From Limonium bicolor (Eukaryota > Streptophyta > Magnoliopsida > Caryophyllales > Plumbaginaceae), in assembly GCA_023374045.1 (NCBI GenBank), contig CM041776.1, positions 280,735,999-280,799,998 on the forward strand: 64,000 bases of DNA, written 5' to 3'. This document shows positions 1 to 61,042 of this stretch, piece by piece. The position numbers and the translations under genes are program-made. The notes beneath the pieces were generated by a model. That model did no database searches. It had not been told where the DNA came from and saw only the letters and a list, made by a program, of their open reading frames with translations. The stretch's first letter is position 1. Each line of letters starts with the position of its first letter.

Positions 1-430
1 CCCTTCAACTGATCGAACAGATCATCAATGCGGGGTAGTGGGTACTTATTCTTCACAGGTACTGCATTCAACTCTCTGTAGTCGATGCGGAGGCGGAGAC
101 TGCCATCATTCTTCTTCACGAAGAGAGCTGGCGCTCCCCATGGTGAAACACTGGGTCTTATGAACCCCTTATATAACAAGTCTTTCAACTGTTCCTTTAA
201 TTCATTCATTTCTGTCGGAGCCATGCGGTATGGTGCCTTGGCTATCGGTCCGGTTCCTGGTAGCAGCTCCATGGTGAACTCTACCTCCCGAGTGGGTGGC
301 ATGCCGGGTAGTTCCCATGGAAAAAGATCGGGGAACTCCGACACTACCAGTAAGTCGGGTTGAACTCGGGGTCTCTCTCTATGTCCTGGACATAGCAGAG
401 GTATACCTCCTCTTTCCTCCTCAACTCTTT
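1..430 (-). pseudogene. Ty3/gypsy reverse transcriptase, N-terminal part (continues off the left edge)
   Basis: On the minus strand this translates to the start of a chromovirus-type reverse transcriptase. Visible are the EFPDLFP and [11 protein letters not shown] linker, the APYRMAP motif, [12 protein letters not shown] and RIDYRELN, ending with the [12 protein letters not shown] motif at the window edge. The catalytic aspartates of the palm lie outside the window. The order gag (right), protease, RT (left) fits one element read leftwards. The reading frame is open over most of this stretch, but the protease just upstream is frameshifted, so the polyprotein is probably dead. Family assignment is firm; integrity is unknown because the element is cut by the window edge. 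Confidence 0.88.
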
Positions 431-478: not shown

Positions 479-933
479 CTAGCGGTATGATATTGTTACC
501 CCAGACGGACTCCTGAGTAGCAGTCGGTGCTCGGCGCAGAGCATACGACCCTTGTGCCGCTCCAACCAGTTCATCCCGAAAATAACATCAAATCCCAAAT
601 CCCTGAACTCAATAAATGAGACTGGAAAGTCCTCACCCCTGATTTTGATGGTGGCTCCTCGGTAATAGCGAGTGCAACGAACCTTCTCCTTAGACGGGAG
701 CGTAACCGTGAAGTCGGGTAGCTCATCAGCATCTAGCCCCAACCTTCTCACAAATGATGCCGCGATAAAGGATGCGAGGCCCCTGAGTCGAAGAAAACCG
801 ATGTCTCAATGCCGCTGACCGAAAAGGTGCCGGTGAGGATAGTACCGCTTTCGCCGGCCTGTGCCTCTGTAAGGATGCTTAGCGCATCTTCCGTACCGAG
901 TCCATAACCTAATTGTATTTCACAAGCTTTCAT
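479..933 (-). pseudogene. Ty3/gypsy aspartic protease domain (frameshifted)
   Basis: Minus-strand reading gives a retropepsin-like domain of a gypsy polyprotein. The N-terminal part (933-748) contains LTGTFSVSG and the active-site FDSGASH. Just after the active site the frame shifts, and the rest (751-479) continues with SFVRRLG, a central domain and the C-terminal signature GFDVIFGMNWLERHKG, typical of the RVP_2 family. A single-base frameshift about 10 residues after the catalytic Asp separates the two halves. The domain lies between the AlkB-like segment on the right and RT on the left, as expected for gag-PR-RT order with an extra domain inserted before the protease. The shift could be decay or a sequencing error. 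Confidence 0.85.
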
Positions 934-1067
934 GAGTAATGATGGTATAACAAGAGTCGTAACAATTTATATGAACAACACTGATATTTTATTGATAACC
1001 ATCCTTTTTACATCATGTGCTTCTTCCTTACATATCTTTTTTACATCACACTTAAAGCATTACATGT
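934..1067 (-). other. Non-coding spacer between AlkB stop and protease, 3'UTR-like
   Basis: Read on the minus strand this AT-rich 134-bp segment directly follows the AlkB stop codon (TAG at 1070-1068). It contains a CAATAAAATA poly(A)-signal-like motif and runs into the protease coding sequence at 933. It looks like the 3' untranslated tail of a captured gene rather than polyprotein sequence. No ORF of note. Confidence 0.4.
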
Positions 1068-1445
1068 CTAATATTCTCTAAAGGTTAGGTTTAACCGTCC
1101 TGGTCTCATGTGTGTCGCATTGATCACTGCTGTCGGTGCTGTATTCAGCTTATTCCTCTTAATCCCATGGTACAACATTCTTGACTCTCCACCCATAATT
1201 AACACATCTCCAAACTTAAGTATTAACTTATTGGCACGGTCCACACACTTCTTCTCGCCGTATAGGAATTCAGCGTCATCTAAAATGGACCAAGACACTA
1301 CGGGTATCCCTCTTTCGAGAGACTCCGCTGTCTCGTCGTTATCCTGGTGCAATCCGAGTCGCCCGTCCTTCTCGTAGAAATTAACAATACATAGATCTGC
1401 TTGTATGCCTGGGATCGGGGCAGCCTCCAACTGTTGTGCGATCTC
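1068..1445 (-). pseudogene. AlkB-like 2OG/Fe(II) dioxygenase, C-terminal catalytic half, inside a gypsy element
   Basis: The minus-strand ORF (Met at 1430, 120 residues) is a clear AlkB homologue closest to the plant ALKBH1-like group. It carries PDICIVNFY-like sequence at 12-19 (DLCIVNFY), the iron-binding GLHQD with His28 and Asp30, the EFLYGEK strand, GDVLIMGGESRM, the distal iron ligand His88 (YHGIK), and C-terminal GRLNLTFR with Arg112 and Arg118, the R-x5-R pair that binds 2-oxoglutarate. It ends in a stop two residues after the last Arg, as plant family members do. AlkB enzymes oxidatively remove methyl groups from nucleic acids. This half is uninterrupted; the N-terminal half lies at 7215-7576, across a later LTR-element insertion. 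It sits in the same orientation between gag and protease, suggesting capture by the retroelement. Expression is not shown. Confidence 0.85.
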
Positions 1446-2799
1446 TGTTGGGCAAAATAGTAGTTAAACTATCTTGCTAACTATGGGCAGTGTACCCAAT
1501 CTTTGTAGTACAACAAGGTCGTATCCACAGAGACTTCGCAACTATCTAATTAATTATCCAGTTTAGTAAATGTACAAAAAGATAAATAAAAGTGCATAAA
1601 ATGTAAATTGGGGTTTAGCCGGAGGCAAGCTTGATTTGTAGGATTAGTGCAGAAATAATAAACACAGTAAAATAAAGTAAATGGATGGAAAAAGGTATCC
1701 TAGGATAGCGGGGGGAATTTCCTAAATTACTTAAATAATTTTATAATCCTGTCTTAATTATTATTGTCTATTAGAGTTAATAATTGTCAGTTACGAACTC
1801 TTATTAATAGCCTCAGTATTTTCCTGCTCAATCCGGAGTGTAAATACCAAGGTTAATTCCTTTGTGGTACCTTGACTATCTCAAAATCATATGTTGATAG
1901 TTACCAAATAAATTCAGTAGTTTGTCACGTTAAGCATTTAACAATATTTGCTGAAAGGAATTAAAACAAGTTTAATAAGTAAAACAGGTGATAAATATTT
2001 ATTTAAGTACATACATTAATTATAATCCTAACTTGCTCTATTTGTCTGTTTAAGAATTTATCTTGTGGCCTTCCTAAATCATAGATAAGGACAACTCTTA
2101 ATTAATTCAATAGACTTTTTACAATCAGAAAAAGTCTAAAATCATTAATTAGCTTTAAGCAAGAATTCTTTTAATAACAGCGATGGATTTTATCTGCTAA
2201 TCAAGGAGAAAATATCTAACATTTGTCTTTCTTTGTGGTCTATTCTCAGATTTACAAAATCATTGAAATAAGAGAAACCGTAAATGCATAAAATGATCAG
2301 TTGTTAAGCATTTAATAATTTAGAGAGACAAAACAAATATTTATAAGCAAACTTGGTATTGATAATAAGTCTGAATTATTTGGGGTCAAACCCCATCCTA
2401 GGATACGAGTAAAATCATTCAGACATTAACAGAATAAAAAGAAAGCAGAGATAGCCATTAATTTGGAGACTGCCGGCGAAGACTGGACTGCGATTCGCTT
2501 CTGCTCCAGCTCCCTTTTCTTCTCTTCTTCTTATCGTGCTTCTGCTTCGTGGTGGAGTGAAGAATGAAAATAAAATGGAGAAGTGGGAGATAAGAGGATG
2601 GAATGGATTGTAGGTGTGGAAATGATGTGGTGGTGGTCTGTGGTCTGTAACGGTGGTCTAAATCTAATTTGGATTCAGGAAGGGATAATTTATTTGAGCA
2701 GAGCAGCGTGGGTTTTATAGAAGAAAGGAAGGGGAAGAAGACAGAGGGAACACCGCGTGAGCAATTTGAGGAATGGATTGGGGTGGCTCTACGCGTGAG

Positions 2800-2972
2800 C
2801 AGTGGCGGAGGTAGGCATTGGCTGGAGGGAGTAAAACACCCCTAATTTGTTAAATTACATAAATTTGTAGTGTAAAAATTTTTTTTTTTAGAAAAATTTA
2901 ATAAAAACACCCCCTAATTTTTTATAATTCTGTCTTTGACCCCCTCAACTTATATTTCTGGCTCCGCCCCTG
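2800..2972. mobile_element. hAT-type MITE inside one LTR
   Basis: A 173-bp AT-rich insertion starts CAGTGGCGGAG and ends CTCCGCCCCTG, giving inverted termini of about 11 bp. It is flanked by the 8-bp duplication CGCGTGAG (2792-2799 and 2973-2980), diagnostic of hAT transposition. The sister LTR at about 6570 has the empty site with one copy of CGCGTGAG. No coding capacity; it needs a hAT transposase in trans. Confidence 0.9.
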
Positions 2973-3104
2973 CGCGTGAGGATTTACTGTCGGCAGGCGC
3001 CTGATATTGTTGAAGGAGTAGATGGTTAAGTTGCAGGCGCCACGAAGAAGATAAACAGCACCGAAGTCTGTCGCGTTAATTTCTGGATCTGGATCTGGAC
3101 ATTT

Positions 3105-3400
3105 ATACGCGTCCGCCCCTGTGTCCGCCTAAGGTTATGCGGACGTCACTCACGTCCGCCCCCTGTCCGCCTAAGGTTACGCGGACAACACTCTGTCCGC
3201 CTCCTGTCCGCCTAAGGTTACGCGGACGTCTATCACTGTCGCCCCCTGTCCGCCTAAGGTTACGCGGACAACACTCTGTCCGCCTCCTGTCCGCCTATGG
3301 TTACACGGAAAACACTCTGTCCGCCTCCTGTCCGCCTATGGTTACGCGGACAACACTCTGTCCGCCTCCTGTCCGCCTATGTTTGGGCGGACACAACATG
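3105..3400. repeat. GC-rich tandem inverted-repeat units in left LTR
   Basis: About eight units of GTCCGCCTAAGGTTACGCGGAC followed by short AACACTCT-like spacers. Each unit is itself an imperfect palindrome (GTCCGC...GCGGAC). The counterpart in the right LTR has fewer units. Confidence 0.85.
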
Positions 3401-3661
3401 GACACGAGTCTTGCGAACTTTGACTGGCTCTAGATTCTTCGTTTGGACTCCGTTTTTCGAGCCGTCTGCGCCTATGCGTTCGTCTCTTCGTGTACTTTGC
3501 TCCTAGCTTGGTTTTCCTCATGTTTTAACCAATAAATTTGTGAGATAACCAATAAAACATAAACTAGAGGTAAAACATACGATAAGTGAGAAATGAGCAG
3601 AAAAGTGCTGATATAATATATGAAATACACCCATAAAACATGCTCATTTAGACACTTATCA

Positions 3662-5227
3662 CACCCCCACACTTACCTTTTGCTTGTCCTCAAGCAAAAC
3701 CATGTACCCAAGCAAGTAGGGAATGCTCAATATTAACAAATACTATTATGAAGGGTAGGATAAAGAAGTCAATAGTACATGATCTTAAACTTTTCGAGGA
3801 GTGTGATCCATCAACTGCTGGTGGCATAGGTGTACTCATGGTAAATAAAAATTAGAGTTTTGGGGTATGATCCGGAGTACTTCAATGCTTCTTAGTTAAG
3901 GTGACTTTGAGAACTTTTACCATGGCCAACTTCTCTCAAGAATGGGCATTGAGGAGAAAACAAAAGGAAAATAGAATTATGCATTTGTTTCACTTTTGCA
4001 TAAGAGATGAGAAAATAATATGTAAGCATCAAGCTTTGTATTTAAGAACACTTAACTCTCTTTGTTGGTTACCAATGGTGTCTCGCAAGTCCCTTATTTA
4101 TTTTTTTGTATATATATTCTTTTTGACAGAGAAGCACCCCTTAGCAATCCCTAAGAAAGAAGACCGAAAGAACCCCTGAGCAATAAAAATCCAACCATTG
4201 CAGATCATTTGGTCACACCGCATATAAAATGCTCCTCAAAAGTAATCAAAATTTGAAAATTTGTACCATTTATCCCACAATTCATAACAGTATTTATTTT
4301 TAAAGAGAACAACCCACATATAAAGGGTCCACGATATTGAATTTGGACAAACGCAAGATAAGCAGAGAGATTAAGCATTTAAGCATAAAATGTCACCGAA
4401 AAGGGCACACTCCCCCACACTTAAATTGAACAATGTCCTCATTGTTTACCAGAAAAAACAAGGGAAAGGTTTTCAGAAGACCTTTTCGGTAAGTAGATAA
4501 AATAGAGAAAACACAAAGGTCACAAATAAACATTTAAGCACATAAACTCTCCTCTGTAGATTTTATTTAAATAAAAGCATAATTAAAGAAACTGGTACTC
4601 CCCTGAGATTATTTTTGCTAGCGTTATAGGAGTTCCCCCACACTTGAGCTTCAGCCTCAAGTAGCGTAGCTTGGTTACGGTGTAGACATGAAGTTGCACC
4701 TGCAAAAGACACTAGAAGCAACCATACTACAAACGGGGTTAAGAGTTTAGCAAAAACAAAATTTAAAGAGAACCTAAAAATTAAAAGAGCATAAAAGCAA
4801 ATAAAATAAAAGTTCATCCGGGTTGCCTCCCGGGAAGCTGCCCTTCTTTAACGTCTTTGGCTAGACGCTTTGGTTAGATTGAACCTGGATCAAAACAAAC
4901 GTTACTTCGGCAAATATAATAGGAAAATGAATACTCCACAAAACCTGGTGTTTGAGGAGGTACTGCCGGTAGCGTAGTTCTAACAGGAGACCAGGTGTGA
5001 TTGGCTTTGCTTCCTCAAATTGGAAGATGTAAAAATCCTCCTCTTGTTGTTGAGGCTTATGGGAAAAGCCGTGATGGAAATGAACATCCATCAGAATTAA
5101 GTACCTTAAAAAAAACAAAACAAAAATTTATACACAAAAAAGGGTAAATACAGAAATAAAAGAAAAAACTAAACAGATAATAAACCAGATAGTTGGACCG
5201 AAGTCCCCGGCAACGGCGCCAAAAACT
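3662..5227 (-). other. Interior of the non-coding LTR element
   Basis: AT-rich and without a believable gene. It contains three CCCCCACACTT boxes (3662-3676, 4410-4423, 4632-4648; read leftwards AAGTGTGGGGG), the first being the polypurine tract at the LTR. A GGGTTGCCTCCCGGGAAG stretch at about 4819-4836, of a type I recall from Athila-like non-autonomous elements, is also present. The primer site complement CCCCGGCAACGGCGCCA is at the right end. Confidence 0.7.
5205..5221 (-). promoter_or_regulatory. tRNA-Asp primer binding site (complement)
   Basis: CCCCGGCAACGGCGCCA is the 3' end of plant tRNA-Asp(GTC) including CCA, so the element's leftward strand carries the complementary primer site. 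It lies 6 bp inside the right (5') LTR, as required for minus-strand DNA priming. Confidence 0.9.
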
Positions 5228-7214
5228 TGTTGGGCAAAATAGTAGTTAAACTATCTTGCTAACTATGGGCAGTGTACCCAATCTTTGTAGTACAACAAGG
5301 TCGTATCCACAGAGACTTCGCAACTATCTAATTAATTATCCAGTTTAGTAAATGTACAAAAAGATAAATAAAAGTGCATAAAATGTAAATTGGGGTTTAG
5401 CCGGAGGCAAGCTTGATTTGTAGGATTAGTGCAGAAATAATAAACACAGTAAAATAAAGTAAATGGATGGAAAAAGGTATCCTAGGATAGCGGGGGAATT
5501 TCCTAAATTACTTAAATAATTTTATAATCCTGTCTTAATTATTTATTGTCTATTAGAGTTAATAATTGTCAGTTACGAACTCTTATTAATAGCCTTAGTA
5601 TTTTCCTGCTCAATCCGGAGTGTAAATACCAAGGTTAATTCCTTTGTGGTACCTTGACTATCTCAAAATCATATGTTGATAGTTACCAAATAAATGCAGT
5701 AGTTTGTCACACTAAGCATTTAACAATATTTGCTAAAAGGAATTAAAACAAGTTTAATAAGTAAAACAGGTGATAAATATTTATTTAAGTACAAACATTA
5801 ATTATAATCCTAACTTGCTCTATTTGTCTGTTTAAGAATTTATCTTGTGGCCTTCCTAAATCATAGATAAGGACAACTCTTAATTAATTCAATAGACTTT
5901 TTACAATCAGAAAAGGTCTAAAATCATTAATTAGCTTTAAGCAAGAATTCTTTTAATAACAACGATGGATTTTATCTGCTAATCAAGGAGATAATATCTA
6001 ACGTTTGTCTTTCTTTGTGGTCTATTCTCAGATTTACAAAATCATTGAAATAAGAGAAACCGTAAATGCATAAAAATGATTAGTTGTTAAGCATTTAATA
6101 ATTTAGAGAGACAAAAACAAATATTTAATAAAGCAAACTTTGGTATTGATAATAAGTCTGAAATATTGAGGGTCAAACCCCATCCTAAGGATAACGAGGG
6201 TAAAATTCATTCAGCCCATTAACAGGAAATACAAAAGAAAGCAGAGATGGCCATTAATTTGGAGACTGCCGGCGGAGGACTGGACTGCGATTCGCTTCTG
6301 CTCCAGTTCCCTTTTCTTCTCTTCTTCTTATCGTGCTTCTGCTTCGTGGTGGAGTGAAGAATGAAAATAAAATGGAGAAGTGGGAGATAAGAGGATGGAA
6401 TGGATCGTAGGTGTGGAAATGATGTGGTGGTGGTCTAAGTCTAATTGGATTCAGGAAGGGATAATTTATTGAGCAGAGCAGCGTGGGTTTTATAGAAGAA
6501 AGGAAGGGGAAGAAGACAGAGGGAACACCGCGTGAGCAATTTGAGGAATGGATTGGGGTGGCTCTACGCGTGAGGATTTACTGTCGGCAGGCGCCTGATA
6601 TTGTTGAAGGAGTAGATGGATAAGTTGCAGGCGCTGCGAAGAAGATAAACAGCACCGAAGTCTGTCGCGTTAATTTCTAGATCTGGATCTGGACATTTAC
6701 ACGCGTCCGCCCCTGTGTCCGCCTAAGGTTATGCGGACGTCACTCACATCTGCCCCCTGTCCGCCTAAGGTTACGCGGACAACACTATGTCCGCCTCCTG
6801 TCCGCCTAAGGTTACGCGGACGTCTATCACGTCCGCCCCTGTCCGCCTAAGGTTACGCGGACAACACTCTGTCCACCTCCTGTCCGCCTATGGTTACGCG
6901 GACAACACTCTGTCCGCCTCCTGTCCGCCTATGTTTGGGCGGACACAACATGGACGCGAGTCTTGCGAACTTTGACTGGCTCTAGATTCTTCGTTGGGAC
7001 TCCGTTTTTCGAGCCATCTGCGCCTATGCGTTCGTCTCTTCGTGTACTTTGCTCCTAGCTTGGTTTTTCCTCATGTTGTAACCAATAAATTTGTGAGATA
7101 ACCAATAAAACATAAACTAGAGGAAAAACATACGATAAGTGAGAAATGAGAAGAAAAGTGCTGATATAATATATGAAATACACCCATAAAACATGCTCAT
7201 TTAGACACTTATCA
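5228..7214 (-). repeat. 5' LTR of the non-coding element
   Basis: 1987-bp LTR with the same termini as the left copy but no MITE. It has about six GTCCGCC inverted-repeat units at 6705-6945. It represents the progenitor state for the MITE insertion in the left LTR. Confidence 0.93.
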
Positions 7215-7576
7215 ATCTCCACAGCTGTGTAATAACCAGATGAAACTCTTCGGGTATTCCCGGTGGTGAGACTTCATCTTGTGGTGGTTTGGTACGTCTT
7301 GGCATACGGATTCCAATCCTTGCCTAAGCTCATCATCCTTAGTTTCATCCATGCTCCTCCTGGGTATTCCGGTGTATAGAAACCTCCCGGTCCCATTCCT
7401 AACTGACTGCATCTCCTGATGATGGCTATTTATGCTTTGGGTGTCAGGTATCCCCTTAATAAAATCATACCTGGGCAGATAACCTGACATTGTTCGGTTG
7501 GAAAGTCTCGGGTTTCGATGTCAGTCTCTTCCGGGTCAAGCGTTGAAGGTATGGGATAGCAAATGTTGAAGTTTCC
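7215..7576 (-). pseudogene. AlkB-like 2OG/Fe(II) dioxygenase, N-terminal half
   Basis: Minus-strand reading from about 7576 gives FNIC, then CPGMILLRGYLT, IAIIRRCSQLGMGPGGFY, MKLRMMSLGKDWNP and, after a frame change, PPGIPEEFHLVI. These match in order the N-terminal half of plant ALKBH1-like proteins (PGM-LLK-YLT, LG-GPGGFY-P-Y, KLSL-MMCLG-DWDP, P-IP-EF-VLV). There is one in-frame stop near 7430, another near 7280, and a frameshift before the junction with the C-terminal half at 1445. The absence of recognisable introns inside the domain suggests a processed copy. The junction is interrupted by the LTR element 1446-7214. As written it cannot make a full-length enzyme. Confidence 0.75.
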
Positions 7577-8044
7577 TAAGGTGGTAATAGGTATATCTTA
7601 CTTAAATTCTAATTATGTCTTAATCTCATCTAACTTAATCATTCACCAAAGCATGCACGAAATGCGGTAAGCAGGCAATTTTATTACTTAACGGTTTATA
7701 GCGGTACCTGCCTCGATGAGAGTTCAGCCTCATTCGTCCTGGTCCACCATGTGTAGTGTGGTTCCCGACTTCTGGATTACCTGTGGGTTCTTGTTTGCAG
7801 TCGGCTGAGTCGTCTTCTGACCGTCAGTTCCAGCACCCTGATCGGTCTTGCCTTTCCCTTCATCTTGGGCCTAAAAGCTCTGCTCTCAGGGTTCCGGAAG
7901 CACTCGTATGCCCGGTGTCCGTATACCCCACAGTAATTGCACTCCACCTTATTACCATTGCAGTCGAGCCGGGGTGGTCCTTGTGACACAACTGACTGAT
8001 GTAGCGTCGTTGGTAGCCACCGGCTCCCTTCCCAAACTCAAAAC

Positions 8045-8123
8045 CTGATTATGTTCAATATCAGTAATTGTATCTTAACGGTTGCTAAATGATTCTTAGT
8101 TCACTTAAAGTGTATTTCCTTAC
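8045..8123 (-). other. Putative intron in gag (79 bp)
   Basis: Reading leftwards it begins GTAAGG and ends ATAATCAG, is AT-rich, and lies between coding blocks ending SNAPK and starting GFEFG. Its removal preserves the reading frame (the AAG-G/GT-TTT junction). Inferred from sequence only. Confidence 0.55.
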
Positions 8124-8370
8124 CCTTTGGCGCATTTGAGCGTAGGGGCTTAGCAGCAATAGCATACGTCAACTTTAGTGGCTCTTCAGTAGCCTTCTCA
8201 GTCTCCATTTTACTCTTCTGACTTTTCTGGGCCTGAGGTTGGTACTTCTGCTTCTTGTACCCGCCTTGCCCTTGGTTCTCAGTACTCTTACCGGCCGTCT
8301 TTCACTTAGCGACATTGTCTTCGTCCCTCAGCTGGACGGTTTTCTCAACCTTAGCAGCGGCATGATAGCA

Positions 8371-8452
8371 CTCTGTTTTCAAAGTATTAATTTCTCTCAT
8401 TCTCAAAGTCTAAAAGTCAAATCTTTTATTATGTCTTAACCTTTCTCTTTAC
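8371..8452 (-). other. Putative intron in gag (82 bp)
   Basis: Reading leftwards it begins GTAAAG and ends ACAGAG, is AT-rich, and lies between blocks ending SYTTLQ and starting CYHAAAK. The frame is kept after removal. Inferred from sequence only. Confidence 0.5.
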
Positions 8453-9305
8453 TTGCAAGGTAGTATAACTTGTCGGCTCCATGCCATAGCGGAGTCGATG
8501 GCTTAGTCTGCCATAGAAGCGATCCACCAGAATCTGGTCGAATACCCCAAACCCGGCAGAAGATGAAGCAAGGCGGTGAACTCTGAGTAGTAATACTCGT
8601 CCACCGTCATCTTGTCTGTCTGCTTCAGCGCATCTAACTGCAGGCGCTTCTTCATCTGGACATGGGTGGGATAGTATTTGGCTCGTAGTAGAGCCGTGTT
8701 CTGTTCCCAGCCGAACTCTGGATTGGCCACGTGCTCGGCCCTCACCAGCTTCCACCAATCGCCTGCTGCTCCCTTCAGGTAAAACGCAGCAAGACGCACC
8801 TTGATCCCAGCAGGGACATCAAGGGTCTCGAAGGCGGTCTCCAGCTCGGAGATGTACGCCTCAAGCTTGGTGGGATCCGTCTCCCCCTTAAATGATGCGG
8901 GTCAAAGGTCAGCAAGACTCTTCACCCAATTCGGTTCCCGAGGCTGTGTGGTGGAGGTGGTGGTGCGCCAGGCTAGTAACCCATTTGCCCAAGCGCGGTA
9001 GCCACGATCTTAGCTATCGTTTGCCCACCAGGTATATCAACAGCCTCGTCGCCTCGACCATAGCCTCGGCTTCCTCTCCTTTCTGACATCTGAACAATTA
9101 CAATGCACATTAGGATTGTATTCACAACGGCTTCGGTCACAGATTTATAACGTTCGTAGACGGTAAATACGATCCACACTTAATAGTGGTCATCTCACTC
9201 TACTCACTCTAACTTATCACCCCTTAACCCATAAATATGTCTTAACTCATATCCTAACTCGGAGGTTATCCGTGTTCGGTATTTCCTTATTCAGAGCGTA
9301 ACTAC

Positions 9306-9316
9306 GCTCTGATACC
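9306..9316 (-). promoter_or_regulatory. Initiator tRNA-Met primer binding site (complement)
   Basis: GCTCTGATACC is the complement of the GGTATCAGAGC primer site used by most Ty3/gypsy and Ty1/copia elements. It lies 5 bp from the LTR start TGTAACACCCC at 9322, confirming that the gag-PR-RT element reads leftwards. Confidence 0.88.
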
Positions 9317-18500: not shown

Positions 18501-21500
18501 TGTTCACACCTGGCCACTAATGACAGTTAGATAAATCAATTCCAACTACCTGACTCTGATTCACAAGCATCACTTAATCATCCTTATTATATCAAAAACA
18601 TACTAATGGGTATAAAGTAAAACATTCAATTACAAAAACCGATCAAAGACCTTTGGGCATCTTTTATAAGGGATATTGTAGTCTCTCCTTTTTCCGGTTT
18701 CCAGTATTCAGTCTTATTTTTCAAGGGTTTCTGATATGGCAAAGACCCTCATCAATGGTTTTCATGATTTAACCCTATTTTTCAAGGGTTTCCGAATCTA
18801 ACCATGATTTTTTTTCATTATGAATGGGGAATTTAGGACAAAAATTAAAGGAAAAACTCTCGGCTGTTGCTTTTATTCTAAGGCAATTTCGCAACCTCAT
18901 AATGCATCATTTTATTCTTTTTCTTCTTCTTTTTTTTCTTTTTTCCTTCTTTTTTCAACAAACCCATTTAAGATTTTCACCCAAAAGACTTTTCACCATT
19001 TTGAAAAGAAAGTAAACATATTACCCAAAAGTAAATTAGAGATAAAAAGAGGAGTAAGGTCATATACTCATGTAAATAAAGAGAATCATGAAGTTAAAAA
19101 CATAAATCTAAAGGTCATTAGAAAGCTTACCTCTTGAGAGAACAACCATTTATCCTTCCCTAATTTTATATGATCAAAGACATGCAAAAAGCTTAGTAAA
19201 ACATTGATAAGATTTCAACTCACCATATTAAATATATATAATAACTCATTTTTTAGTAAATATATGTATTTTAAAAATCAAAATAATTTTTTAAAGGGGG
19301 AACCCCTCCCTACACTTGGCAGGAACATGGTCCCCAGTGTTCAAAGAAAAAATAAATAAAGAAATTTATAAAGAATTAATAGAAAATTAAGCAAATAATG
19401 AAAGAAAAGGACTCCCCTGGGGTGAAGAAGACCAGATGCGTGGGGGCCCTACACTTAGCCCTTGGCTACTTGGCGGAATGATCAGAGATCTTGGTGACGG
19501 ATTTCGCATGCTCCTTTGGATTAAGTTCAGTTTAAGACGGGAGTTGACCAGGTGGTCTAGATTGAGCAAGAAGTTGCTACATTTACAACTGCAACAACTT
19601 GTGCTCCTTGCGAATGGTCGAGATCTCTTTGTGAGCATCTTGGGTTTATTCATCAGAGCTGTCATCATATCACGTAATTCAGCCATCTCGGCCTCTGATG
19701 CAGATGCAGGTTGGGATGGTGGGTTGGAAGGAACTCCTCCATTAGGAGTCTGCATGAATTGCCTTTGACCTCCCTAGTACCCGACATGAGTTTGGAAGTT
19801 CTAAGGGGGTTGGCCCCCATGCTGCCAAGACTGCCTAAACCCAGCATTGTTGCTCACATAATTTGGTTCCTCAGCATTCTAAAAGTCTTGCAATTCAGGG
19901 CCCTGGGCGTGTGGTCGTGCACTAACCACATTAGTCTGCTAAGCAAGAGAATTCATTGTCATTTGCTCCACCACCTTTTGTAGAGCACTCATCTTCATTG
20001 ACGTTTGAGAATTGCTCTCCAATAACTGCTCATGACTCTTCATTAAGGTATCGAATTTTCTGTTGCCCTTGCCCACTTGATATAAGCCTACGGTACCACC
20101 CCTGGATCCACCCGTGTCCCAATCTCTAAGTTCTTCGCAAAGAGTTTCAATCCCACTCAGGAATTTCTCTCCTGGCCTTTCAGGATATCAGCACCAAGGG
20201 AGGATAGTGTCATAGTTTTGCATTGGTTTACTAATCCCTTGTAGAACAACTGGGAAAGTTGTTCCTTGGTGAGGCCGTACTGAGGACATGTTCGGAGCAA
20301 CCCTTTGAATCTATCCCAAATCTCATAGATGTTCTTCGAACCAGATTGTTTAAAGTTGTAAACCTCAGCGATCATCTCCAGGGTGTGACTTGGTGGCAGG
20401 AACTTGGTATAAAATTTGGTTACCATGTCATCCCTTGTGGAAATAGTACTTGGGGTTAGACTATGGTACCATTTGCTGGCAGCCCTTGCAAGACTATGGG
20501 GAAAGAGGGAGAGTCTTGCATATTGTAGGACGGCGTTGAAGGCAGTCAGGCTATTGGTGCATTGTAGAAATTTAGTTATGTGGAGCAAGGCTTCGTCCGG
20601 TTTCGAGCCATTGACATGCCTAACTCTTTCACACAGTGAATCTGATGATATGGTTTAAGTTTTTGCCACTCATCGTACTCGTTTTGTGTGGGGGAGGGAG
20701 GTTGATGGCGGGCTTCTGGCCTTGATTGGAAGGCCGATTAAATTTACAGATGGTTGGGGTTACCATTGCCTGGTGTATTTGATGTTATTTGTGTAGGGGG
20801 TGTGTTTCGTTGGTTCTTGCATTGTCTTGCGTGTGCAAGGTCCTCTAAGTTGAGGAAGGAGCTAATTCGGGATCGAAGTTGGATAAATCTTCTGGAAGAC
20901 TATTCGATCAGAGAAGCATTCACCTTATAACTTGAGGAGGAGCAAAACATAACATTATAATATTTTTTAATTATAAAGAAAAGAAAGAAAGTAAAGTATA
21001 AAGATGGTCTAAAATGAAAACAGGTAAAAGAAAAGTAAGGTTAAGGGAGCCGGGCATAGTGCCGGGAGTCATGCGTCTGGCATTGGACTTCCTCCAAATG
21101 TGTCGGGTACCCTTACCCGGCATTACGCACGGCAAAATCACTCAAAGAGAAATTAATGTATCAAAGAATACGAAGAAGTAAAAAGGAAATAAAAAAGATA
21201 AGAGAAATAAAAAATACGGTAAAAGAAGAAAAAAGTAAAATATAATAAGAAATGAAAAAAAAGCGGTATAAGAGCAAATCTATATATCTCTAAATATGAA
21301 TAGAAAGTATAATACGGGCGGGTAGAGTGTCGGATGTGTCCTGTCCGGCGTCGGACTTCCTCCAAAATGCCGGACGTATTGTACCCGGCAGTGTGCATGG
21401 CACATTCAACTTAGTAAAAACAATGGACGAATTAAATCAAAGAATAAAGAATAAAGAATAGGACAATTACCGATTTTAGGACTTGGACTAATTCCAAGTC

Positions 21501-40841: not shown

Positions 40842-43800
40842 ATGGAGCGTTCAAAGATGTACAATGACAGACTTGACAACGATTACCTACAAGGGGTCGA
40901 TAGGTTCTGTAACATCCTAGTCAACAATCTTCAACCGAGGAATAAGGGGTATATTTTGTGTCCATGCATCGACTGTAAAAATGACTTCAAGTATAGAGAT
41001 ATTGAGAAAATTAAGGACCATTTGATTCGTCGTGGGTTTACAAAAGATTACGAAGACATAGCATTATGGCATGGTCAGCATGCAGTGGATGTGTTTGACT
41101 ATGCAGAAGCTTCAGTAGAACAACCAGAATTGGACGGCATTGAAAACTTTGGGGATGACACAGAAAACTTTGGGATGATGACAACTGCACAATTAATGAC
41201 TAGATCACAGAAGATTCGAACCTTGACACACTATTGGAAGATGTAGAACAATACTTTACCAACAAACCGAGTACACATGAAAACTTTATGCAGTCATGTA
41301 AAGAACCACTGTACGCTGGATGTGATGCACTGGCACTGAACAAATTAAGTGCGACGCTGAAACTATTTAATGTCAAATCGAAACACGGATGGAGCGATGT
41401 AAGTTTCACGGAACTATTGCAAATTATTAAGGAGATACTACCAGCGGACAATGTCATGCCTACAACTACTTATGAGGCGAAGAAGTTAATGTGTCCAATG
41501 GGTATGGAGTACAAGAAAATACATGCTTGTCCATCGGGGTGTATTTTGTTCTGGAAGGAGTATGAGCTACATGATTGTTGTCCTAATGTGGTGAATCACG
41601 TTATGTAAAGAAAGATCATCAAGACGACAACAAGCCAAAGGTTCGTTCCCCAGTGAAGGTGTTATGGTATTTGCCAATAATCCCAAGGTTTAGGCGGTTA
41701 TTTGCAGTTCCGAAGGATGCTGAAAACCTTAGGTGGCATACAACACATAGGTGGACGAGGTAAATTAAGACATCCTGCTGATTCACCGCAATGGAGAAAC
41801 ATTGACAGAATATTTCCTGAGTTTGGTAAAGAATCAAGAAATTTAAGACTTGGCTTATGCACGGATGGAATGAACCCGTACGGCACTTTGAGTAGTGTAC
41901 ACAGTACTTGGCCTGTTCTGTTGACTGTATACAACCTCCCACCATGGTTGTGCATGAAGCCTAGGCATATTATTCTATCAATGTTGATATCCGGTCCAAA
42001 ACAGCCGGGGAATAATATTGATGTGTTTCTGCAGCCGCTTATTGATGACTTGAAACTCTTATGGAATAAGGGAACAACAGTATATGATTCTTATGCAAAG
42101 GAAAACTTCACACTGCGTGCTATGCTATTTGTACAATAAACGACTTTCCAGCATACGGAAACCTATCTGGATATACAATCAAAGGAGCATTAGCGTGTCC
42201 TGTTTGTGGTGATAACACTTGCAATATCCGATTGAAATATAGTGGAAAAAATGTGTACATGGGTCATCGAAAATTCCTTCCAAGACATCATAAGTACCGA
42301 AAGATGACAGATGAATTTGACGGGACGACTGATCATGCTGTAGCTCGGCAACCTTATCAGGTGTCGATGTTTATAACCAGGTGAAAGATATTGTGAACAA
42401 CTTTGGTCCTCCAACTAAAGCTACAGAGAAGAGTGTTTGGAAGAAAAGGTCGATATTTTTTGATCTTGAGTATTGGCAACATTTGCAAGTAAGGCATTGT
42501 ATTGATGCCATGCACGTCGAGAAAAATGTGGGTGAAAGTCTTGGTGGAACGTTGCTAAACATTAAAGGGAAAACAAAAGATCATTTAAAGGGGGAAAAAG
42601 ATTTAGTAGAGTTGGGCATACGAATAGAGCTCCAACCCCAACAAAGAGGAACACGTATCTTCCTGCCTCCCGCATGTCACACTCTATCCAAAGAGGAGAA
42701 AAAGAGTTTCTGCAGTGCCCTTTCTGACATCAAAGTACCATCAGGGTACTCTTCCAACGTAAGAAGTTGGGTGTCCATGTCTGAACTCAAGTTAGTAGGG
42801 ATGAAATCTCACGACTACCATGTTTTGATGCAACATTTGCTTCCCATTGCAATTCGTGGGATTCTCCCACATGATGTCAGGAAAACCATTACAAATGTGT
42901 CCGTGTTTTTCAATGAGTTTCTGCCAAAGTTCTAGATGTGCAGACACTGGACAAGTTGCAGGCTGAACTAGTTGTCACTATGTGCCAGTTGGAGATGTAT
43001 TTTCCACCTTCATTTTTGATATTATGGTGCATCTGCTTGTTCATTTAGTAAGGGAGATCAAGGAGTGTGGCCCATTATATCTCAGGTATATGTATCCATT
43101 CGAAAGATACATGGGTGTGCTAAAAAAAAATGAAAAACCGCAGACGTCCAGAGGGAAGCATTGTTGAAGGATATGTAACTGAGGAAGTGATTGACTTTTG
43201 CACCCACTACTTAGAAGGCGTGGACCACATAGGACTTCCGAGATCAAGACATGAGGGCAAGTTACAGGGTGTAGGTACAATCGGGAAAAAAATGGTAAGG
43301 CCTGATTTTGCTGCATTGTGTAAAGCACATCTAACCGTGTTGAGCCATGTTGAAGATGTTGAACCATACTTCGTGTCACACTTAAGCGCTCTCAGAGCAC
43401 AACATCCGTGATGAGTCAAGTGAGATTAAAGAAGGAGCAGAATGCTACATTCGTTACATGGTTTAAAGAAAAAGTTATGCATGAAGATTCAGGCAATGTA
43501 ACTGAAATGGTTAAGTTATTAGCGCTCGGTCCGAATCTTGATGTTTTATCGTACGAGGGTTTCGATGTGAATGGGTTCTCTTTTATACTGAACGCCAAGA
43601 TCGTAAGTCAAAAAATCAAAACAGTGGTGTTCATCTAACTGCTTCACAGGAAATATATCAAGATGCAGGTAGTAAGGGAGTGGACAATGAGGAAGAGTAT
43701 TATGGTGTGATTCAGGAGATTTGGATCCTTAACTACACCGGTTACGAAACTTGTGTCTTTAAATGCAAATGGGTAGACAACAGGCGCAGTTACCGTCAGG

Positions 43801-44084
43801 TGGAACACGGTATGAAGTTGGTTGACCTAAACGCATTGACATACACAAAAGAACCGTTTATAGTTGCTTCTAAAGCTAGACAAGTGTTCTACTGCCGTGA
43901 TCAATGTAATCCCAGATGGTCAGTTGTATTGCAAAGTAAGCGACGGATAGTTGGTGTTGATGGTGTTATGAACGAGGAAGATTATGACTGTGAAATGGAC
44001 AATGTTCCCCTCCAAATGCCAATGGAAGTTGATAATGTGACCAACTTTCAGTGCACAAGATCAGATCATGGAGAAGGGTTGTAG
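40842..44084 (+). pseudogene. CACTA TNP2-type transposase (frameshifted)
   Basis: Domains in order: transposase-associated domain (40842-41100: YILCPCIDCKN, HLIRRGFTKDY, WHGQ); tnp2 transposase core (41234-42900: LPADNVMPTTTYEAKKLMCPMG, LRHPADSPQWRNID, GLCTDGMNPYG with the first catalytic Asp, NDFPAYGNLSGY with the second, HVEKNVGESLGGTLLNIKGKTKD); DUF4218 (42800-43420: LPIAIRGILPHDVRK, YMYPFERYMGVLK); DUF4216 (43680-43960: VFKCKWVD, FYCRDQ). The enzyme binds the inverted ends and catalyses cut-and-paste transposition. The coding sequence changes frame at about 41220, 41600, 42140, 42370, 42930 and 43130; some breaks may be introns, most look like indels. Confidence 0.9.
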
Positions 44085-52862: not shown

Positions 52863-52903
52863 ATGGCAATCTGTAATTCATCCTCTTCGTCCGAATAACA
52901 TAC

Positions 52904-54054
52904 ATGCTTCATAAACCAGTGATCATCTCTTCCATAATTCTACCCACCTCCGTTGCTGAGCGGCTGACATGGAAGAGGAGGATCACAGTAGACCAATCAT
53001 CGGGAAAGTACAGGACAATCCAAGCCGCCATTGACTCTGTCCCGAGCGGTAACAAGGATCCTGTTCTGATTCTGGTCAAGCCGGGGACGTACAAGGAGAA
53101 AGTGGTTGTTCCGGCGGATAAGCCTCATATCATTCTCAGTGGGAAGAGTGCTGAAACAACTGTGATAACTTGGAGTGATCATGGCGATATCCACAAATCC
53201 CCGACTGTCACCGTCCTCGCAGATAACTTTGTAGGCCGTTACATCACTTTCCAGAATACGCATGGTAGAGGTGACAAAGCAGTGGCATTGAGAGTCAAAG
53301 GTGACATGGCTTCATTCTACGCCTGCAAAATGCTTTCCTATCAGGATACGCTGTTGGTCGAACTGGGAAGACAGTTTTATAGCAACTGTTATATTGAAGG
53401 TGAAGTGGACTTCATTTTTGGCACTGCTGCTGCCATTTTCAAGGTACATATATATTAAATTATAAGTATCATTAATTAATCACCTTTTTATATTATAATT
53501 AATTCATCTCCTGTTCTTATAAATTCATTTCTTATTTTCCCTTCCCAGAAATGTCATATCCGCTCATTATCACAAGGAGACGCTGCCATCACAGCACAAA
53601 AAAGAGAGTCACCAAATGATAATGGTGGATTTTACTTTCTAGGTTGTAAGATCACAGGAGTAAAGAGTTGTGTCCTCGGTAGGCCATGGGGTCCTTATTC
53701 CAGGGTTGTCTTTGGATACACTTACATGTCCAGTGCAGTTCTGCCTCAAGGTTGGGATGATTGGAATAAGCCCAACACCCAAAGGTATGCATATTTCATG
53801 TCATTCATTTTATTAATTATATATTTCAAAACCTAATTTTATATTGTTTATTAATTAATTCATTATATATAACTGGTGATAATCTTCTCTTCTTTGATTA
53901 CAACAGTACTGTGTATTATGGTGAGTACATGTGCTCTGGTCCAGGAGCCAACAGATCAAAAAGGGTGACATGGTCACAAACTCTCACAAGCCAACAAGCC
54001 TCACCATTCATGACCACCAACGTTATTCAAGGGAACCGATGGATTAGATCTTAG
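52904..54054 (+). CDS. Pectinesterase (pectin methylesterase), PRO-less type, three exons
   Basis: Exons 52904-53443, 53549-53784 and 53907-54054 with GT-AG introns give a 307-residue protein, the length of family members without the N-terminal inhibitor-like PRO region. The enzyme demethylesterifies cell-wall homogalacturonan. Motifs: ITVDQSSGKYRTIQAAIDSVP (27-47), YQDT (146-149) with Gln147 and catalytic Asp148, YIEGEVDFIFG (163-173) with catalytic Asp169, and LGRPWG (223-228) with Arg225 and Trp227. The Gln usually found before AVALR is Lys125, and the usual GRHYY is GRQFY. A short hydrophobic N-terminus (5-18) may be a weak signal peptide. A short upstream ORF (52863-52898) ends just before this ATG. 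An in-frame stop at 52874 limits the start. The frame is intact throughout, so it is likely a functional or recently functional gene. Confidence 0.9.
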
Positions 54055-57665: not shown

Positions 57666-58057
57666 AGGTAGTATTAGAGCCGTGTTTGGTAAATAAGATA
57701 AAATTTGGATTAAAAAGGAACTAAAATGTGGGGTAAGCCGTTTGGGGAATCGTAGTGCCTGCGATACTATGTATGTGTTATACTGTATGGATATTGAAGT
57801 TCATTCTCCGTTTGTGTATTACAATGATTGTGATAATGTTAGCATAACCGAATGAGTATTGCGTACTGGTATTGGAGCTATTAGATGTGTTAGCTCCTAA
57901 TATGGGGTAGAGACTTAATATATGGGGATATGGGTGGATGTTGCTTACACTGCTTAGTACATGTAATCAGGAGTTCGTTTAGAGCTCTAGGGAGTGCAGG
58001 ACTGGCTGATAGACTGAGTTTTCCATACCAACCAGAAGTAGGAGTCGCAGAACTCAG

Positions 58058-59323
58058 ATGGCCGCCAACGACCCCATGAGGCAGTTGCAGGAGTTGGCTC
58101 TCAACCTGGGACAGATAGTCCAGAGGCAGGCGCAGAGGGATAATGTGCCGGAGGACTACACTAAGAGAATTGCCCATCTGAAGCCCACATCCTTCAAGGG
58201 AGAGGAGGACCCGGTGCTACTTGAGGACTGGATAAGAGAATTCGACAAGATTTTTGAGGCAGTCAATTGCCCAGCTGACCGAAGGGTAAACACAGCAGTT
58301 TACTATTTCAAGAGTGAGGCAGACATCTGGTGGTCCGCCAACAGAGATGTGTTATTGGCTGGGCCTGATTTCGGTTGGGATGGCCTGAAGGAGGCCATGA
58401 GGAGGCGCTTCTACCCCGAGCATGTCAGGATGCAGAAGTACTTGGAGTTCTCAGAACTCAAGCAGCTATCTTTGAGTGTCAAGGAGTACCATTCGAAGTT
58501 CCTGGAGCTGGCCAGGTTCGCGCCTACGATGGTTCCCGACGAGGCGTCGAAGGTGCAGAGGTTTGTAGGCGGGCTAAACTGGAGTCTACAGGAGGCCCTC
58601 AGCGTGCTGACAATCCCGACGCTCCAAGATGCGTACGGGAAGGCTGCTAACCTGTATAGGGTGCAGCAGAAGAGGAAGGAGGTCCTGGCTGGTAATAAGA
58701 GGAAGATGGAGGGAGGAGATGAGCCTCGAGGACGAGAGGATCAGTCCCACAGACATCAGCAGGAGAAGAGGTGGAAGCCTTACTCGGACCGCAGAGACGG
58801 GAGGCCGAGACATGGGGGAGATCAAAGGGGTGATCAGAGACGAGGTGACCAGCCCCAGCACCAGTCTCAGAGAGGAGAGCCAGACAGGAGAGGCACTTCT
58901 ACTGCAAGAGGTGCAACAAGGATCACCCAGGGAAAGATTGTGAGGGGAACTTGGTCACCTGCTTTCGTTGTGGAAGGCGGGGACACCGATTGTTCGAGTG
59001 CTTTCAGAGTTCCCAGGGAGGCAGTCAGCAGAGAGGCTACAGTGGCGACCGCTCATTCAGGTCAGTCCGACCAGCAGGGCAGAGGCCCGAATCAGAGTCA
59101 GCGTGGGGATGCTCCTCAGCGTAGTAATGGAGAGGGCGGCAATGGTGGCAATAGAGGCCAAGGGGAGTACCGAGGCAACCAGCAGCGGGCTCCAGGGAAG
59201 ATAAATGTGATGAGTCGGGCGGAAGCCGAGGCCGAGGCAGACGTGTTGGCAGGTACCTTTACTGTTCTTGGTACTCCTGCACGCATTCTTTTTGATAGGG
59301 GCTACTTATTCCTTTATATCTGA
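58058..59323 (+). pseudogene. Tekay gag with zinc knuckle read out of frame
   Basis: ATG at 58058 opens a 421-codon frame. Gag capsid core: RIAHLKPTSFKGEEDPVLLEDWI, FKSEADIWWSANRD, MRRRFYPEHVRMQKYLEF, LARFAPTMVPDEASKVQRFVGGL. A basic Arg/Gly/Gln-rich linker follows. At about 58894-59010 the CCHC double knuckle (CKRCNKDHPGKDC, CFRCGRRGHRLFEC) lies in another frame than the ORF, while NVMSRAEAEAEADVLAGTF near the end is again in frame, so two compensating indels flank the knuckle. The ORF ends at a lesion in the protease active site. Gag forms the particle; the knuckle binds RNA. Confidence 0.85.
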
Positions 59324-59597
59324 TAGCCTAGTTGGGAAATTGGGGATAGAGATTTGTGAGACTTCTCCTATAGCTGTATCTATACCATCGGGACGGGTGA
59401 TTACTTGTAAGAATGTAATGAAAGACGTAGGTATAGACATCAAAGGGGAGCAATTTGTAATAGATTTGATCCAATTCGCCTTGACCGACTTTGATATAAT
59501 CCTGGGGATGGATTGGCTGAGCAAATACAAGGGAAGGATAGACTGCAGCGAGCAGAAAATTATTCTCAGAGGACCGTCGGGACGGAGAGTCTCGTAA
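59190..59597 (+). pseudogene. Tekay aspartic protease with disrupted active site
   Basis: The domain begins around VLAGTFTVLGTPA in the gag frame and continues in a second frame (59268-59597) with GATYSFISDSLVGKLG, a central strand region and [15 protein letters not shown]. The frame break falls exactly at the DSGA active site (about 59294-59310), where the catalytic Asp-Ser-Gly triplet is lost by a small deletion. Without the protease the polyprotein could not mature. Confidence 0.85.
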
Positions 59598-61042
59598 AGA
59601 AATGTGGAGGAGAAGCCCGGAGTGAAGCTCGTATCAGCAATGACAATTCTCTCCAAGTAAAGAAAGGACAGCAAGCATACCTTTGCTATGTCCAAGACCT
59701 GAGCCGGGAGCTGGACGAAAAGAAGGAGATCCGAGTAGTAAGCGAATTCCCAGACGTGTTCCCAGACGAGATTCCGGGTATGCCGCCAGACCGAGAAGTG
59801 GAATTCAGCATCGACCTTGTGCCAGGCTCAGCGCCGATTTCGAAGGCTCCTTACCGGATGGCACCCTCAGAATTGAAGGAATTGAAGACCCAGTTGGAGG
59901 ATCTTTTAGATAAGGGATACATTCGCCCTAGTGTATCGCCTTGGGGAGCCCCGGTCTTGTTTGTGAAGAAGAAAGACGGGAGTATGAGGTTATGCATAGA
60001 CTACAGGGAGCTGAACCAGATCACGGTAAAGAACAGATATCCCTTGCCGAGAATAGACGATCTTTTTGACCAGCTGCAAGGGGCAGGGACCTTCTCGAAG
60101 ATCGATTTGAGGTCAGGGTACCAGCTCAGAGTAGCAGAGAGAGACATCCCGAAGACAGCCTTCCGGACTAGGTATGGGCACTTTGAATTCTTGGTGATGC
60201 CCTTTGGACTTACCAACGCCCCAGCTGTCTTTATGGACCTCATGAACCGTATCTTCCACCCCTATTTGGATCGGTTCGTGGTGGTTTTCATAGATGACAT
60301 CCTTATATATTCCAAGGACGAACGGGAGCATGAGGAGCATTTGAGACTAGTATTGCAGACATTGAGGGAGCAGCAGCTATACGCGAAGCTGTCCAAGTGT
60401 GACTTCTGGTTTAGACTGAGTGGCATTTCTGGGCCACGTCATCACAGAGAAGGCATCTCAGTAGATCCGTCAAAGATTCAGGCCGTAAAAGAATGGCCAA
60501 GGCCCAGTAACCTGACTGAAGTACGAAGCTTTCTGGGCTTAGCAGGGTATTACAGATGTTTCATGAAGAACTTTTCAAAGATAGCGAGACCTCTCACCAA
60601 CCTTATGAAGAAAGTGATTAAATTCCAGTGGGACGGCGACTGTGAGAAGGCGTTCCAGACGTTGAAGGAGAGGTTGACCACAGCTCCAGTCCTGACCTTG
60701 CCTTCAGGGACGGACGGGTTTGAAGTTTTCAGCGACACTTCCAAATATGGCTTAGGGTGCGTCCTGATGCAGCATGGGAAGGTCATAGCCTATGCGTCGA
60801 GGCAGTTGAAAGAATACGAGACCAGATATCCGACGCATGACCTGGAATTAGCAGCCGTGGTTTTTGCACTCAAGATCTGGATACACTACCTCTACGGTGT
60901 TGTGCAAGATCTTCACCGACCACAAAAGCCTCAAGTATATTTCACCCAGAAAGAATTGAATATGAGGCAGAGACGATGGTTAGAGCTGATTAAGGACTAT
61001 GACTTGGAGATTTTGTATCATGAAGGGAAGTCCAACTTGTAG
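59513..61042 (+). pseudogene. Tekay reverse transcriptase and RNase H
   Basis: A 509-codon frame. [83 protein letters not shown] (first Asp), [16 protein letters not shown], and [11 protein letters not shown], the FIDD active site, at about 60288. Thumb and connection: [12 protein letters not shown]. RNase [17 protein letters not shown] (usual DAS changed to DTS), [12 protein letters not shown]. Two local frame slips with recovery (about 60415-60440 and 60905-60945) scramble short stretches, the second covering the FTDHKSL motif of RNase H. It copies element RNA to DNA. The frame ends at 61042 before integrase. Confidence 0.9.

Follow-up and report, generated by a model that had tools for sequence, protein, structure and literature searches.

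An ALKBH1-type dioxygenase domain within a putative alternatively spliced intron of a Ty3/gypsy retrotransposon family of Limonium bicolor

Organization of the locus

The window analysed here is a stretch of 64,000 nucleotides of the Limonium bicolor assembly (2.92 Gb, on which the genome searches were run), at C1:280735999-280799998, and its subject is a Ty3/gypsy long terminal repeat (LTR) retrotransposon carrying an AlkB-type dioxygenase domain between gag and pol. On the minus strand a primer-binding site (PBS), gag with a CCHC zinc knuckle, AlkB, protease (PR) and reverse transcriptase (RT) follow one another in a single orientation; the original prediction, made from the letters of the window, had read this order from the LTR onwards, and its coordinates hold to within a few bases. 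It had placed the AlkB segment at 7576-7215 and 1445-1068, and the domain does lie there, between gag and protease, but it is better described as a predicted exon (7575-1068) inside an intron, the splicing having escaped that first reading. The features are as follows.

9321 to ~12988 (outer edge approximate), minus strand: 5' LTR of the AlkB element, with 94-95% matches to its partner LTR and a Kimura two-parameter (K2P) distance of 6.6%
Beyond the window, L029 3087-6788 (C1:280729186-280732887): 3' LTR of the AlkB element, paired with the 5' LTR
9306-9316, minus strand: PBS GGTATCAGAGC; the LTR end is at 9322
7708-9089, minus strand: gag exon, running from its ATG (9089-9087) as far as the predicted donor; its frame is interrupted in the window copy
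7900-7944, minus strand: CCHC zinc knuckle of gag (PF00098, E 0.0014, 19.0 bits, narrowly missing the curated cut-off of 20.8)
7706-7707, minus strand: predicted splice donor GT (CAG/GTACCG), phase 1, with spliced junctions present in genomic DNA
7576-7707, minus strand: predicted intron 1 of 132 nt, absent from the gag-AlkB splice form; acceptor AG at 7577-7576
7215-7575, minus strand: 5' piece of the AlkB exon
1446-7214: nested LTR element within AlkB, with LTRs at 1446-3661 and 5228-7214 and the target site duplication (TSD) ATCTC
1068-1445, minus strand: 3' piece of the AlkB exon, bearing HxD, the distal His and R-x5-R and ending in a TAG stop (1070-1068)
909-1067, minus strand: spacer from the AlkB stop to the second predicted acceptor, CAATTAG, which ends at 909; missing in 14 genomic copies
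479-908, minus strand: protease, the beginning of the pol exon, in two frames in the window copy
1-428, minus strand: start of reverse transcriptase, leaving the window at base 1

In the window copy the gag capsid (PF03732, E 9e-11), the protease (RVP_2, E 3.8e-14) and the 3' piece of AlkB (PF13532, E 5e-31) are recognized by their domain matches, and the AlkB pieces, taken as 7591-7215 and 1445-1071, align with the open AlkB frame of another copy, L028, at 91% and 89% identity. The copy is defective, with frame breaks in gag and protease and an insertion that interrupts AlkB. Its AlkB frame was taken from open copies because other frames also align at about 90% DNA identity; the frame at 7520-7212, present in the list of long open reading frames (ORFs) of the window, is the wrong one. 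An origin of gag and protease in different elements, which the original prediction had named as one of the findings that would undo it, is excluded, since the LTRs are paired and other copies keep the same order; gag and pol thus belong to one element. A search for a TSD flanking the outer AlkB element gave no clean one.

The element family in the genome

Twenty further copies, hand-picked from 39 other scored places, were each fetched at 9.9 kb. Every one of the 20 has protease directly after AlkB in the order of domains and in like orientation; a gag match stands upstream of AlkB in 18 (the exceptions are L012 and L018, whose gag-end DNA still aligns) and an RT match downstream in 18 (the exceptions are L013 and L017). 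The gag-AlkB-protease order, which had been proposed for checking over many copies, recurs in the copies sampled. A 23-mer pattern around the HxD motif of AlkB matched 989 genomic sites at three mismatches or fewer, and the same pattern read backwards matched none.

The domains of copy L028 (RVP_2, RVT_1, RNaseH, Integrase_H2C2, rve) give the gag-PR-RT-RNaseH-integrase order of the Ty3/gypsy chromoviruses. Behind the integrase there is a chromodomain-like tail, found in other copies as well (PF00385, E 9.4e-5, 22.7 bits, slightly below the curated cut-off of 25.1), and the AlkB element is therefore taken to be a chromovirus. Within this group it may belong to Tekay, a guess from its LTR ends and integrase motifs. 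The PBS GGTATCAGAGC is taken to be of the tRNA-iMet type. A tRNA-Met primer site is typical of most chromoviruses (PMC6317226), and in this respect too the element agrees with them.

A divergent subfamily, represented by L053 and L056, has AlkB of 71-73% DNA identity, and only the fused gag-AlkB state, at the same place, was found in it. The synonymous divergence (dS) between its two members is 0.38, and the fused gag-AlkB arrangement may be the native state of this subfamily.

The AlkB domain and the selection acting on it

In open copies the AlkB frame reaches up to 251 codons between stops, is flanked by stops on either side and has no early ATG; it runs uninterrupted between acceptor and stop in 4 of the 20 full copies and in 2 of the 12 copies with a joined gag-AlkB junction described below. 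The closest solved relative by sequence is OsALKBH1 (5XEG, E 8.7e-73), and the 21 matched sequences of the Protein Data Bank (PDB) are all OsALKBH1, Escherichia coli AlkB or ALKBH1. An AlphaFold2 model of the element's AlkB (predicted local distance difference test, pLDDT, 91.2) finds its top fold match in OsALKBH1 (5XOI, E 3.7e-28, 49% identity, template modelling score, TM, of 0.92 on the target). The iron ligands and the R-x5-R motif that had been read in the 3' half of the window copy are indeed kept across 21 aligned copies (H159 in 20, D161, H219 and R249 in all 21, R243 in 15), so that HxD...H, R-x5-R and, in the predicted model, the double-stranded beta-helix fold of the AlkB-type 2-oxoglutarate/Fe(II) dioxygenases are all found. 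By its closest homology, to OsALKBH1 and ALKBH1, the domain is assigned to the ALKBH1 type. The earlier proposal that a retroelement family has captured an ALKBH1-like gene is supported.

Among plant proteins, the nearest are four unnamed ones (P0001-P0004, 60-73% identity), followed by ALKBH1D-like proteins at about 50%. A tree of 77 rows groups the element copies and P0001-P0004 in one clade with a Shimodaira-Hasegawa-like approximate likelihood ratio test (SH-aLRT) value of 100 and a stem of 0.61. A loop of about 10 residues, which the remaining four plant proteins of the alignment possess, is missing from the element's AlkB and from P0001-P0004. The four unnamed proteins may themselves be products of elements that carry AlkB in other plants.

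Variants common to at least two copies fall on the three codon positions in the ratio 33:32:64 in AlkB (21 copies); for gag (15 rows) the ratio is 29:29:64 and for PR-RT (19 rows) 45:43:104. Singleton variants, which record the decay after insertion, are flatter over the codon positions. The same excess at third positions is obtained when ten gag-AlkB junction copies are taken alone (15:16:56, p 3e-9). The ratio of nonsynonymous to synonymous divergence (dN/dS) among copies, another check proposed at the outset, is 0.12-0.13 for AlkB between the main family and L053/L056, much like that of the protease (0.10-0.15), at an AlkB dS of 1.4-1.7. On these sequence comparisons AlkB is under purifying selection in the family, with a constraint equal to that of the protease, and is an old component of it; as dS is saturated, its age can be given only roughly, at perhaps tens of millions of years.

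A candidate intron with two acceptors

One donor is predicted at the end of gag (CAG/GTACCG) together with two acceptors, CTTAG/GAAAC before AlkB (acceptor 1) and CAATTAG/GTTATGG before protease (acceptor 2), all in phase 1. The codon periodicity of variation follows these borders. Gag shows it as far as the donor (27:23:66), whereas the stretch between donor and acceptor 1 lacks it (11:17:9 when read in frame with gag, 9:11:17 when read in frame with AlkB); it returns in AlkB (44:41:75), is lost again between the AlkB stop and acceptor 2 (13:9:9) and is regained beyond acceptor 2 (20:22:43). In L028 the T content is 32% in intron 1 and 13% in the gag exon. Another CAG/GT, which precedes the predicted site by about 75 nt, was rejected as the donor; it is in the wrong phase, and as a decoy joined to acceptor 2 it gave 0 genomic sites.

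Searches for the joined junctions, made after the splice sites had been predicted, found the gag-protease junction at 14 genomic sites (8 without mismatch) and the gag-AlkB junction at 12 (1 without mismatch), and the reversed controls of both at none. All 26 loci were fetched. Intron 1, AlkB and the spacer are all missing from the 14 gag-protease copies, and in 13 of them the alignments abut at the predicted base, L040 ending 5 nt short. Ten of the 12 gag-AlkB copies lack intron 1 and retain the second spacer, their gag tail being recognized by blastn; the other two are L053 and L056, in which the gag end aligns as protein only. Open fusion frames occur in both classes: Gag-AlkB in L046 (384 residues), and Gag-PR in L034, L039 and L041 (427 residues in the last). 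Where the intron is retained, a Gag stop stands 6 codons into it in 19 of 21 copies. Since one donor fits two in-phase acceptors and both junctions occur in genomic DNA, three products, Gag, Gag-AlkB and Gag-Pol, are to be expected.

In the junction tree, which holds 43 of 47 rows (L018, L044, L053 and L056 fell below the length filter), the two spliced forms are interleaved, the gag-protease form requiring 8 changes, of which supported branches force at least 4, and the gag-AlkB form 7, with at least 3 forced. For either spliced form to arise from the other, sequence would have to be regained or lost with precision, and full parents are therefore needed. Exact intron loss by reverse transcription of spliced RNA is much the simplest reading of these genomic copies.

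Proposed mechanism and alternative explanations

The following course of events is proposed. A high-copy chromovirus family of the Ty3/gypsy type would have gained, long ago, an ALKBH1-type 2-oxoglutarate/iron dioxygenase, kept since then under purifying selection, and would hold it between gag and pol within an intron that is spliced in two ways, from a single donor where gag ends to either of two same-phase acceptors. The unspliced RNA would give Gag, ending about 6 codons past the donor; splicing from the donor to acceptor 1 would join AlkB to the Gag C-terminus; and splicing to acceptor 2 would remove AlkB and give Gag-Pol. If the fusion proteins are made, Gag may bring AlkB into the virus-like particles, beside the element RNA and complementary DNA (cDNA), where the enzyme could strip methyl groups from the adenines of either. 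The whole explanation, from the old acquisition through the two-acceptor intron to demethylation in the particle, is considered probable, and it rests directly on the architecture, on the constraint on AlkB and on the genomic copies with both predicted junctions.

Several observations weigh against this account, which is drawn from genomic DNA. The pattern counts disagree, with 4014 genomic sites for the donor region, 1526 for the acceptor-1 region and 989 for the AlkB motif, although these are pattern sites of unequal reach and not numbers of elements; many donor-bearing copies may therefore be without AlkB, or may vary at the other sites, and AlkB-deleted derivatives are possibly common. The AlkB frame is closed in 16 of the 20 full copies. 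With regard to the source of the captured protein, the element's AlkB and the four unnamed proteins stand apart, on a long stem, from the 68 other plant rows. The GT and AG dinucleotides are kept at the three sites in 20, 21 and 19 of 21 copies, which does not exceed the background, 48% of dinucleotides being equally kept, and the conservation of the splice sites was dropped as evidence. Both spliced forms cluster on the tree beyond shuffled labels, mostly within a single young subfamily that is not represented among the full copies sampled; near-identical pairs inflate this clustering, and the full copies had been chosen for likeness to the window copy.

The splicing could be as described while AlkB serves another role than the erasure of adenine methylation from the element's own RNA or cDNA, acting on host RNA or chromatin or being a non-catalytic extension of Gag. 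A substrate cannot be revealed by sequence, and rice ALKBH1 is reported to affect the binding of Polycomb repressive complex 2 (PRC2) besides acting on N6-methyladenine in DNA (6mA) (PMC10469495); the iron and 2-oxoglutarate ligands are retained, however, and the predicted Gag fusion points to the particle, and such a role is accordingly considered rather unlikely.

Alternatively, AlkB could be an ORF of its own: internal initiation on unspliced RNA, at its first Met, would then yield a free enzyme of about 210 residues, the spliced junctions being minor by-products. In the open frame the first Met (in RPGM) is residue 42 and the Pfam domain begins at 41, P0001 and P0003 are predicted to begin at this same inner Met, and in the AlkB-bearing element of an orchid ORF2 is separate (PMC9289625). 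However, conserved residues and codon periodicity begin upstream of that Met, at acceptor 1, and the gag-AlkB junction is in phase, with the fusion frame of L046 open, which makes free translation an improbable rival.

The 14 gag-protease copies might also be empty sites that predate the capture, AlkB being a later insertion that happens to start with GT and end with AG. They do lack the entire segment, and AlkB is likewise missing from the related Ty3/gypsy element at 58013-62527 of the window (plus strand; pol 67% identical, gag continuing into protease in one frame) and from the 120 PR-RT relatives listed, in none of which PF13532 was found. Against this, the protease of these copies is mostly 91-94% identical to that of L028 (the exceptions being L042 and L043 at 86% and L044 at 90.6%), they are nested within the AlkB-bearing tree, AlkB was already in the subfamily separated by a dS of about 1.4-1.7, and the gag-AlkB class of junctions would be left unexplained. 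This possibility is thus very remote, and a later nested insertion of AlkB with a target duplication, the other objection foreseen by the original prediction, is excluded by the copy order and by the exact intron-type junctions at the 14 sites lacking AlkB. That AlkB is an inert passenger amplified along with the element is hardly credible: its frames are broken in most sampled copies, but the dN/dS of 0.12-0.22 and a third-position excess like that of gag and pol refute it for the replicating lineage.

Nested and neighbouring elements

The insertion within AlkB (1446-7214) is a single LTR element of 5.77 kb bounded by TG...CA. Its LTRs measure about 2.2 and 2.0 kb (K 2.9%), and the 5-bp TSD ATCTC stands at 1441-1445 and 7215-7219. 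No long ORF occurs in the 1.57 kb of its internal part, a PBS-like TTGGCGCCGTTGCCGGGG is found on the minus strand, and the element is probably non-autonomous. Elsewhere in the window there are the gag of another retrotransposon (20160-20654, minus strand), a DUF4216 frame (43542-44081, plus strand) and a pectinesterase fragment (52877-53455, plus strand). Copy L018 has direct repeats in 45-bp steps at 1977-2655 (oriented), upstream of the element coding part. The nuclear chromosomes also hold many broken matK fragments, which represent nuclear copies of plastid DNA. A matK fragment on the small contig C1175 matches Limonium carolinianum at 95% identity over 81% of its length, followed by other Limonium, Popoviolimon and Plumbago, as expected for a Limonium host.

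Comparison with known systems

The original prediction knew of no described element of this kind. An AlkB-bearing Ty3/gypsy lineage has in fact been published for Phalaenopsis, with another AlkB type in another lineage (PMC9289625); it was the sole primary report on AlkB in LTR retrotransposons found, besides one citing review, in a coverage without most subscription papers and all preprints. Within that coverage Phalaenopsis, identified in a screen of 121 angiosperm genomes, is the only plant for which a Ty3/gypsy element with AlkB is published. The Phalaenopsis element with an ALKBH5-like ORF2 (Gypsy_Pa_2799) is 25.5 kb long; its RT groups as sister of Ogre within Tat, and it has dual RNase H and a tRNA-Arg PBS. 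One ORF holds both gag and pol, while ORF2 is separate and encodes an AlkB belonging to the ALKBH5/9/10 clade, which removes N6-methyladenosine (m6A) from RNA in vitro (PMC9289625). Both are high-copy plant Ty3/gypsy elements with an AlkB-type dioxygenase whose iron and 2-oxoglutarate ligands are kept. The Limonium element differs in its backbone, with a chromodomain after the integrase and a tRNA-Met-type PBS where the orchid one is of Tat/Ogre type, and in its AlkB, which is of ALKBH1 type (by homology, not by a tree with ALKBH5 rows) and lies between gag and pol in a predicted spliced intron, where the orchid one is a separate ORF2 of the ALKBH5/9/10 clade. The backbone, the AlkB type, its position and the fused two-acceptor design thus set the Limonium family apart from the orchid case, and no report of the family was found in the literature searched; among the matches listed for Limonium, no title concerned its retrotransposons.

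If the proposed account is true, this would be a second case of a plant retrotransposon that has captured AlkB, one in which both the AlkB family and the element lineage are different and purifying selection has been long. The idea that adenine methylation of RNA or DNA restrains plant retrotransposons, and that the elements fight back, would become directly testable; one donor, two in-phase acceptors and a Gag-fused AlkB predict that the enzyme works inside the particle; and fossil spliced copies would offer a DNA-only route to the introns of retroelements in any genome. A fuller version can be put forward only tentatively: the ALKBH1-type capture would be independent of the orchid one, Gag, Gag-AlkB and Gag-Pol would be produced from one start codon, the packaged Gag-AlkB would erase m6A, N1-methyladenosine (m1A) or 6mA from RNA or nascent cDNA, and an epitranscriptomic defence would have been countered at least twice via different AlkB families.

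Rice ALKBH1 is reported to act on 6mA, with a preference for single-stranded or unpaired DNA, and on chromatin (PMC10469495). The element's AlkB resembles the plant ALKBH1 proteins (OsALKBH1, ALKBH1D; 5XEG/5XOI) in its predicted fold, its catalytic residues and an identity of about 50%, and differs from ALKBH1D in lacking the N-terminal region and the loop of about 10 residues and in its predicted capacity to be fused to Gag. Plant RNA viruses (Flexiviridae, Closteroviridae) carry an AlkB domain inside the replicase; they likewise are mobile or viral plant elements with AlkB, but they are RNA viruses, with a distant AlkB (about 15% identity in the fold matches seen) and with the domain placed within the replicase.

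Splicing is known in the plant LTR retrotransposons Ogre, BARE1, EVADE, Bagy2 and CRR (PMC3735527, PMC12786077). In these, as would be the case in Limonium, facultative splicing decides which proteins are made, and the BARE1 sites, with the donor CAG/GTAT and the acceptor CAG/GA, are of a similar kind. Copies of the predicted spliced forms are present in the genomic DNA of Limonium, whereas DNA copies of the spliced BARE1 RNA reportedly could not be amplified. Unlike the known spliced elements, as these sources present them, the Limonium element is predicted to use one donor with two acceptors, one of which would give a fusion of Gag to the captured enzyme.

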